Shown: positions 17,519 through 43,536 of the stretch, piece after piece
Position numbering within the stretch: the first letter of the stretch is position 1
Layout of the letters: the number at the start of each line of letters is the position of its first letter
Origin: Halorubrum sp. CBA1229
GTDB taxonomy: Archaea > Halobacteriota > Halobacteria > Halobacteriales > Haloferacaceae
Reading direction: 5' to 3'
NCBI RefSeq assembly: GCF_003721435.2
Contig: NZ_CP054585.1
Span: 1,178,001-1,242,000 of the forward strand
DNA: 64,000 nucleotides
The notes under the pieces: model-generated
Told to the model about the DNA's origin: nothing
Seen by the model: the letters and a program-made list of their open reading frames with translations, nothing else
Databases searched by the model: none
Program-made: the position numbers and the translations under genes

Positions 17519-17619
17519 CGCGACGACGAGCCCCGGCTGAAGGGGAACTCCTTAAGTCGGACTACGCCCGAGGGCGCATGTATGCGAACGGGCGTATCGA
17601 GCGGTGACGGGTGGTCGCC

Positions 17620-41593: not shown

Positions 41594-42580
41594 CTACTCC
41601 AACCGGCCGACGTCTCCGAGCACCGCGCTCGCGGTCTCCGGACCACCGGCGCCCCGGCCCGAGATGTTGAGCCGGCCGGCGTGCGTGGTCTCGATCTGGA
41701 CGATGTTCTGCGTCCCGGAGACCGCGAGCGTCCCGTTCTCGGGGACGAGCCGCGGAGCGACCCGGACGGTCTCCCCGGTCGCCTCGCCGATAAGCCGGAC
41801 CGTCCGGCCGTCCTCGGCGGCGAGCCGGAGCGCCGAGCCGGGCACGTCGCGGATCCCCGCCACGTCGGCGTCGTCGAGCGTGAACTCCCGGGCGTCGGCC
41901 GGGTCGTCAGCCGCGCCGAACGAGAGCACGTTCGCGAGGATGACGCACTTGAGCGCGGCGTCGGTCCCGTCGACGTCGAAGGAGGGGTCGGCCTCGGCGA
42001 CGCCGAGGTCCTGCGCCTCCGCGAGCACGTGCTCGTAGTCGAGCCCCTCCGCGGCCATCCGGGTGAGGATGAAGTTCGCCGTCCCGTTGAGTACGCCGCG
42101 GACCGCGGTGACGTGGCCGGGCTCGATGTCCTCGACGGTCGAGACCGCGGGGATCGCCCCGCCGACGGTCGCCTCGAACCGGATCTCGCCCGCGCTGTCG
42201 TCGACGGCGGCCCGCAGGTCGCCGAAGCGCTCCGCGACCGGGCCCTTGTTCGCGAGCACGGCGTGGCGGTCGCGCTCCAGCGCGCGAGTCACGTGCGAGA
42301 AGCCGGGCTCGGCGTCGCCGAGGGTCGTCGGCGTCGCCTCGACGAGGACGTCGTAGTCGGCCGCGAGCGCGTCCGCGGGGTCGTCGTCGCCGACGATCCC
42401 CCGCTCCGTCTTCCGGGCCACCACCGCGTCGGGGTCGACGCCGGCGTCCCGGCCGCCCGTCCCGTCCGCGACGACCGCCGTCGAGGAGTCCGCGACGGCG
42501 ACGACCTCGTGGCCGTACTCGCTCGCGAGGTCGACGACAGAGCGCCCGACCGCGCCCGCGCCGACGACGGCGAGTCTCAC
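41594..42580 (-). CDS. hom: homoserine dehydrogenase
   Basis: The 328-residue enzyme reduces aspartate semialdehyde to homoserine in the threonine/methionine branch. The NAD(P) motif is [12 protein letters not shown], with the catalytic Lys in [11 protein letters not shown] and the family stretch [14 protein letters not shown]. It is a short form without a C-terminal ACT domain. Its GTG start overlaps the stop of the ACT-domain gene as GTGA, so the regulatory domain is carried by the separate upstream partner. Position before EF-1alpha is common in haloarchaea. Confidence 0.92.
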
Positions 42581-43164
42581 GCCTCCACCCCCGTGAGCGG
42601 CTCGACCAGGCGTAGCTCCTTCTCCTCGGCCAGCTCCCGGACCGCCGCGAGCGCGGCCTCCGTCTCGCCGGCGCGGGCCTCTAGGCGAAGCCGCGCGCTC
42701 GACGCCTCCTCGGTCCCCTGGGGGGCCGCGAGCGACACGTCGGCGACCGACGCCGACGCGCACGCCTCGATCCGCGAGAGCGTGTCGGAGAGGTCAGTGT
42801 CGATGAGGTGGCCGAACAGCAGCAGCGTCACCTCCTCGGCGTACCGCTCTGTCCCCGCCTGCATCACGTTCACGCCCTCGCTCCGGAGGGCCTCGACGAT
42901 CCCCTCGAAGCGCTCCTGCGTGGCTTCGAAGTCGACTTCGACCGGGATCCGACCGCGCGGGGTCTTGTTCCCGCGCTCGTGGTAGATCGAGAGGAGGTTC
43001 CCCCCGTTGTCGGCGATCGGTTGGAGGGCGGCGAGCAACTGCCCCGGCTCGTCGACGAGCTCGAGCCGCACCGTGTGCGTCGACGGCGTCGCCGAGGCGT
43101 GCCCGCCGTCTGGGGTGGGATCGTCATCCGCCCGGCCGTCGACCCCCTCGGGCGCGTCGCTCAC
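42577..43164 (-). CDS. ACT-domain amino-acid-binding partner of homoserine dehydrogenase
   Basis: The 195-residue protein has an acidic N terminus and then an ACT domain (THTVRLELVDEPGQLLAALQ, with DNGGNLLSIYHERG), followed by a second half with the same fold pattern (EASSARLRLEARAGETEAAL). ACT domains bind amino acids allosterically, so it probably gives feedback control to the adjacent hom product. The GTG start at 43164 overlaps the TGA of a threonine-rich upstream ORF, and its own TGA overlaps hom. Confidence 0.85.
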   Translation of the reverse strand: MSDAPEGVDGRADDDPTPDGGHASATPSTHTVRLELVDEPGQLLAALQPIADNGGNLLSIYHERGNKTPRGRIPVEVDFEATQERFEGIVEALRSEGVNVMQAGTERYAEEVTLLLFGHLIDTDLSDTLSRIEACASASVADVSLAAPQGTEEASSARLRLEARAGETEAALAAVRELAEEKELRLVEPLTGVEA

Positions 43165-43328
43165 GCCGCCACCTCCGCGGGGCCCGCCGGATCGACACCG
43201 GGGATGACCGTCGCCAGCGGCGCGATCGCCGCTGTGGTCGGCGTCCGGCACGGTCCTGTCGGCGGCGCGGAGCGGTCGCTTGCTGGCTCCGTCGCGGTGC
43301 GCCGAGCGGGAGTCGTGCCCGTCTGCAT
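43161..43328 (-). other. threonine-rich leader ORF of the hom operon (55 aa)
   Basis: The ATG lies 28 bases after a TATA box (43354-43359), so it is the predicted leaderless start of the operon transcript. The peptide begins MQTGTTPARRTATEP and has 10 Thr in 55 residues. Its TGA overlaps the GTG of the ACT-domain gene (GTGA). It is positioned like a leader peptide, and the operon makes a threonine precursor, but a regulatory role is inference. No protein domain is seen. Confidence 0.5.
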
Positions 43329-43353
43329 ACCAGAAAGGAGTCGGGGGATCCGG

Positions 43354-43359
43354 TATAAG
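43354..43359 (-). promoter_or_regulatory. TATA box of the hom operon
   Basis: Read on the minus strand the sequence is CTTATA, centred 28 bases before the ATG of the leader ORF at 43328. It defines that ATG, not the downstream GTG at 43164, as the probable transcript 5' end. Confidence 0.6.
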
Positions 43360-43536
43360 CCTTCGGCGATGGCAGGCGTTGCCTCGCTTCGTTCCGTGTG
43401 AACTTACGGCACGGAGAGCGGCGGGGACGGTCCGACGGGGAGGGAGGAGTTCCGTCGAGCCCCCGGACGAGGTGGGTGTACAGCCCTCGAAACGGGCAAA
43501 AAGAATTTTCGGATGGCGGCGGTACCGTCCGCGCTG

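Follow-up and report, generated by a model that had tools for sequence, protein, structure and literature searches.

A putative leader peptide with conserved threonine and isoleucine codons before the homoserine dehydrogenase operon of Halorubrum and its relatives

The hom operon and its leader ORF

The window analyzed here, a stretch of 64,000 nt from Halorubrum sp. CBA1229 (contig NZ_CP054585.1, positions 1,178,001 to 1,242,000), carries on its minus strand the homoserine dehydrogenase gene hom, an upstream gene for an ACT-domain protein and, before both, a short open reading frame behind a promoter:

41594..42580 (-): hom, homoserine dehydrogenase (PF00742, 8.5e-48), GTG start overlapping the ACT stop
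42577..43164 (-): gene for an ACT-domain (amino-acid-binding) protein (Pfam PF01842), GTG start
43161..43328 (-): leader ORF of 55 codons, 10 of them for Thr, with a probable leaderless start; stop overlapping the ACT start (GTGA)
43170..43176 (-): GGAGGTG within the leader ORF, resembling a Shine-Dalgarno site for the ACT gene; kept in nearly all relatives
43353..43358 (-): TATA box TTATAC, 30 nt upstream of the leader ATG
43371..43383 (-): GGCAACGCCTGCC, element resembling an operator, lying before the TATA box; kept in Halorubrum and in a small number of sister genera

A sequence-only reading of this DNA had described an ORF of 55 codons with 10 threonine codons, two of them ACA and one ACT, and the sequence bears this out (43328..43161). 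It had also proposed that the leader is coupled to the ACT gene, and the ACT gene to hom, by GTGA overlaps. Both are found: the leader's TGA (43163-43161) shares bases with the GTG that starts the ACT gene (43164), and the ACT gene ends at 42577, within the GTGA that opens hom at 42580. Together with the Shine-Dalgarno-like site inside the ORF, the leader-ACT junction thus presents the stop/start overlap and intragenic site seen in termination-reinitiation coupling. The genome holds a single copy of hom, and the gene lies downstream of an ACT gene in all 49 related loci tested.

The transcript had been predicted to start at the ATG of the ORF, and the promoter agrees with this prediction. The distance from TTATAC to the ATG is identical in all 34 Halorubrum loci first compared, and this constant 30-nt spacing predicts a leaderless start; transcription of the hom operon probably begins at the leader ATG itself. 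Just upstream of this promoter, GGCAACGCCTGCC resembles an inverted repeat and has one exact copy in the whole genome; it may be the operator of a dedicated regulator.

We collected the regions upstream of ACT genes from 125 loci in Halorubrum and most other genera of its family, with 16 of the loci taken from other families; all belong to a single class, and the sequences are not independent. Almost no variation is seen within Halorubrum in the promoter or the first 80-90 nt of the leader; beyond that, sequence and length vary freely (17-67 codons in all). For a test of reading frame, the nearest ATG behind the TATA box was taken without regard to frame. This ATG stands in the frame that makes the leader stop overlap the ACT start in all but one of the 50 Halorubrum genomes (49 of 50), through 23 distinct leader lengths; in the sole exception (L058), a base is missing from a run of C. 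Most other genera of the family retain the leader ORF, and 34 of their 44 leaders are in overlap phase with the ACT start. In seven of the ten exceptions (L103-L105, L110, L113, L117 and L118), a leader stop codon (TGA, TAG or TAA) lies directly before the ACT ATG or 1 nt from it, an abutment that occurs in two clades; another (L126) is out of frame near a run of G; and for the last two a separate scan gave overlaps of 4 nt (L076, ATG 4 nt upstream) and 8 nt (L077). Retention of the frame across 23 lengths indicates that the leader ORF is translated, and it settles the earlier concern that the ORF might prove not to be conserved in related genomes.

Short leaders of 17-22 codons, in Halorubrum and one sister genus (L027, L034, L060, L070 and L071), have neither the hairpin nor the rare codon described below. 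Richness in threonine or isoleucine is absent from the leaders of other haloarchaeal families, which count 9-31 codons. Some Halorubrum genomes (L121-L124) also carry a second ACT gene, 55-66% identical, behind a leader of 12-13 codons without a Thr/Ile site, and an ACT gene of similar kind stands behind a 12-13 codon leader ORF, again without such a site, in genus g39 (L106 and L107). No comparable leader was seen before thrC or trpC in the same genome.

Codon content of the hom leader and of a second leader before ilvB

Threonine codons occupy positions 3, 5, 6, 11, 13, 24, 29, 31, 32 and 40 of the leader, with ACA at 24 and 32 and ACT at 6. Ten threonines exceed what mononucleotide shuffles of the same leader yield (3.1 ± 1.6, P = 0.0002). 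We considered this richness as a conserved feature and rejected it. In the first 22 codons of the Halorubrum leaders, pairwise substitutions at codon positions 1, 2 and 3 number 2254, 2485 and 2517, and single changes comprise 1043 synonymous and 2762 non-synonymous ones; this even spread argues that the peptide itself is not under protein-type selection. Codons 3, 5 and 13 fall in this evenly substituted stretch, and leaders outside the family are not rich in threonine. The overall richness would thus mostly reflect conservation at the RNA or DNA level rather than of the peptide. Of the threonine positions whose conservation the sequence-only reading had suggested checking, these three do not stand as codons, and the ACA site after the hairpin does. 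What is fixed in the leader is its frame, the hairpin P2 and a rare threonine codon after P2. Two ACA codons are of concern here:

43257..43259 (-): codon 24, the rare threonine codon ACA, which immediately follows the hairpin and is a candidate for regulation; nearly every full-length leader of the family has ACA within codons 23-25
43233..43235 (-): codon 32, second ACA (after ACC), common only to the closest relatives (L002-L004, L006, L007, L013, L014)

In Halorubrum, ACA makes up 11 of 536 threonine codons in ACT genes (2%) versus 58 of 412 in leaders (14%), and nearly all leader ACA codons are at codon 23 or 24. In sister genera the same site reads ACA ACA, ACA ACA ACA, ATT ACA ATT ATT (ACA), ATC ACA ATT ATT, ATA ATC ACG or ACA-ATA, so that the replacements of ACA-ACA still encode threonine or isoleucine. 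Across 23 representatives, codons 22-29 hold 53 rare Thr/Ile codons (ACA, ATT or ATA) versus 13.6 ± 3.2 after shuffling of the codons inside each leader (2000 permutations, maximum 25), a contrast that is not a strict probability since the representatives share ancestry. The signal is weakest in Halorubrum, which has one universal ACA; the stronger codon runs are those of the sister genera. Homoserine dehydrogenase feeds the synthesis of both threonine and isoleucine, and the leader codons therefore fit the gene; methionine is a third end product that requires hom.

A second leader lies in the same genome before ilvB, where an ORF behind a TATA box, MRRHTAVPMTADVAGAVAPIIVGV*, ends in ATT ATT GTA GGG GTA TAA (L208):

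L208:1167-1241 (same genome, C1 about 390080-390154): ilvB leader ORF, also in L224-L253 and L279-L302

The end I-V-G-V/A-stop, or a slightly longer form of it, occurs in 29 of 30 loci of the family and, outside it, in 22 of 24 haloarchaeal loci, often with a second isoleucine before Ile-Val-Gly-Val/Ala. A hairpin encloses the stop codon, GTAGGGG pairing with CCCCTAC. Again without selection for frame, the nearest promoter-proximal ATG is in frame with the I-V-G-[V/A] end in all 48 scorable loci, which span many haloarchaeal families, over 15 distances (57-174 nt) and with no intervening stop. This leader, probably leaderless as well, does not overlap the ilvB gene and has no match in Rfam. 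The product of ilvB makes isoleucine and valine, so here too the leader codons fit the pathway.

Taken together, these observations favor a leader-peptide gene that would tie expression of ACT-hom to the supply of charged Thr-tRNA and, in several genera, also of Ile-tRNA; we put the probability of this reading at about 0.68. From the sequences, we infer both that threonine is sensed and that expression responds.

The leader may instead be nothing but a loading device: haloarchaeal ribosomes start well on leaderless AUGs, not at Shine-Dalgarno sites, and a leaderless ORF could supply the ACT gene with them through termination-reinitiation and sense no amino acid at all. Short leaderless ORFs with an overlapping stop and no Thr/Ile runs do precede ACT genes in several other families (for example, L038, L047 and L049), as do the leaders of the second copies in Halorubrum (L121-L124). 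Furthermore, a study in H. volcanii reports that the ACT-hom pair is strictly coupled, a stop in the upstream gene abolishing downstream translation (PMC6728339), and Shine-Dalgarno sites do not drive initiation in the 5'-UTRs of H. volcanii (PMC3986360). Loading alone, however, leaves unexplained why rare Thr/Ile codons gather at one fixed place (53 against 13.6 expected), why runs of threonine and isoleucine codons replace one another, and why an Ile/Val leader stands before ilvB, where there is no overlap with the gene to be loaded. We regard this explanation as unlikely, albeit the most serious competitor of the leader-peptide reading.

RNA structure of the leader

Two helices can be drawn in the hom leader:

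43314..43320 (-): P1 5' arm GGGCACG (codons 3-5), pairing with 43247-43252; moderate covariation
43247..43252 (-): P1 3' arm CGTGCC, pairing with the P1 5' arm
43286..43305 (-): P2 hairpin, 5' side, TCGGCG (43305-43300) and GGAGC (43290-43286)
43259..43273 (-): P2 hairpin, 3' side, GCTCC (43273-43269) and CGCCGA (43264-43259)

Setting the structure by hand on an alignment of 14 sequences lends it moderate support: 80.5% of cells pair in P1 and P2, versus 31-43% when the structure is slid along the alignment. Five of the 19 pairs show compensatory changes in these 14 sequences, a number reached by 14 of 500 shuffles; in P1, a C-G pair has become U-A in genus g48 (L075 and L125). Most loci of the family give a match to a covariance model of the element, and among its 66 matches the inner pairs of P2 hold well and the outer pairs less so. 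A global RNAalifold run over 42 aligned leaders did not yield a useful fold, probably because the helices shift by whole codons between lineages. The folding energy of the whole leader is not unusual (z = 0.26).

A structured RNA, either a riboswitch or a protein-binding RNA in which the codons are incidental to the motif, would account for the compensatory changes, for the success of the covariance model and for the even substitution of the first 22 codons over positions 1, 2 and 3. Yet a frame kept through 23 lengths demands translation; the covariation of P2 is modest when set against the shuffles and fades outside the seed group; all Rfam hits to the hom leader are below the gathering threshold; and the swap of ACAACA for ATTACAATTATT, which has little likeness as RNA, keeps the Thr/Ile codons. 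We consider this explanation improbable. That the ORF, conserved and translated as it appears to be, encodes a small protein acting as such is hardly credible, given that third codon positions carry no excess of changes, the C-terminal half is constrained in neither sequence nor length (17-67 codons within the genus) and no Pfam domain matches.

No intrinsic terminator was found before the ACT gene. For this reason we describe the hom leader as a putative leader-peptide device and not as a classical transcription attenuator. We also considered a stalled ribosome relieving the masking of the Shine-Dalgarno site, and rejected this model: in simulations of 40 leaders, stalling had no consistent effect. 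With stalling simulated at the ACA codon, accessibility of the ACT Shine-Dalgarno site was 0.33 in the free and 0.35 in the stalled state. The hairpins P1 and P2 are present, and simulated stalling gives no consistent structural switch at the ACT start.

Proposed mechanism and related loci

In the leader-peptide reading, ribosomes on the leader would slow at the rare Thr or Ile codons when these amino acids run short; the slowed ribosomes would then change RNA structure around P2 and P1, or act through a link to RNA polymerase, and output of ACT-hom would rise. The leader would serve as an obligatory entry for ribosomes, whose speed at the Thr/Ile codons sets output. Because start-stop overlaps are strictly coupled and Shine-Dalgarno sites go unused for fresh initiation in Haloferax, ACT and then hom would probably be translated only by ribosomes that have first passed through the leader. 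Strict coupling alone predicts lower, not higher, hom output on stalling. Candidate steps for a rise in output would be factor-dependent termination, mRNA decay or a transient fold missed by the thermodynamic model. The sister leader at ilvB, with its Ile and Val codons, may act likewise.

Attenuation by leader peptides is a textbook device of bacteria, and the thrL leader of enterobacteria carries runs of threonine and isoleucine codons. The likeness to such leaders that had been noted at first sight holds in that the ORF and its frame are kept, rare Thr/Ile codons are fixed and a sister leader exists at ilvB; it fails in that overall threonine richness is not the signal. As in thrL, a short ORF with Thr/Ile codon runs precedes genes of threonine synthesis including homoserine dehydrogenase. 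In contrast to thrL, the hom leader is archaeal and probably leaderless, its stop overlaps the next gene, no terminator was found, the regulatory codons number only one to five, and the hairpin precedes these codons instead of following them. The ilvB leader has a similar counterpart in Corynebacterium, where ilvB leader peptides (the ilvB-II motif) comprise an ORF rich in branched-chain codons and are thought to act by attenuation (PMC10272879). Both are short branched-chain-codon ORFs before ilvB, a likeness of arrangement; the haloarchaeal form differs in its I-V-G-V/A end within a hairpin that holds the stop codon, and in being probably leaderless.

Within Archaea, the H. volcanii coupling study concerns the same ACT-hom pair and the same type of 4-nt overlap; it tested the step from ACT to hom, and its available part makes no mention of a leader ORF before the ACT gene (PMC6728339). 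Short ORFs at transcript heads, as in the hom and ilvB leaders, are also known as uORFs in long 5'-UTRs of H. volcanii: a start-site study lists 16, none before hom or ilvB, and its accessible portion proposes no amino-acid logic (PMC4983044). Our search of the open-access literature, partial in coverage, turned up no archaeal example of attenuation by a leader peptide. Leader peptides that sense amino acids are known to date from bacteria, and our results point to their being at work in Archaea. If this is true, ribosomes translating leaderless archaeal mRNAs would sense the charging of tRNA and thereby set the expression of biosynthetic operons, which would explain the short ORFs at the head of these genes and allow transcription-translation coupling or coupled reinitiation to be tested directly in living archaea.

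A different arrangement is observed at leuA (L254, same genome, C1 about 388714-388810; L255-L271). In 18 of 18 loci the promoter-proximal ATG opens a frame other than that of leuA, and in most of them no ATG or GTG start exists in the leuA frame after the upstream stop. Between the two frames lies a conserved DNA junction, CGGCGGRTCGAGTTCTTCCAGGGCAC (0-frame CGA GTT CTT, with Val-Leu at its end), and a +1 frameshift at the Leu codon is possible. The start-codon problem of leuA2 was noted previously, with speculation about slippage when leucine is absent (PMC8305020). We may tentatively hypothesize, at somewhat less than even odds, a logic shared among haloarchaea for the aspartate and branched-chain amino acid pathways, whereby the end product is gauged through the codons of a leaderless opening frame (Thr/Ile at hom, Ile/Val at ilvB, a Leu codon at the conserved +1 junction of leuA); Archaea would then have a ribosome-mediated, codon-based form of gene control of their own. 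Elsewhere in the window, a short ORF (17582-17619, +) lies behind a TATA-like box (MRTGVSSGDGWSP) and its stop overlaps by 4 nt a downstream gene, the protein of which has only a weak, sub-threshold match to Rubrerythrin.
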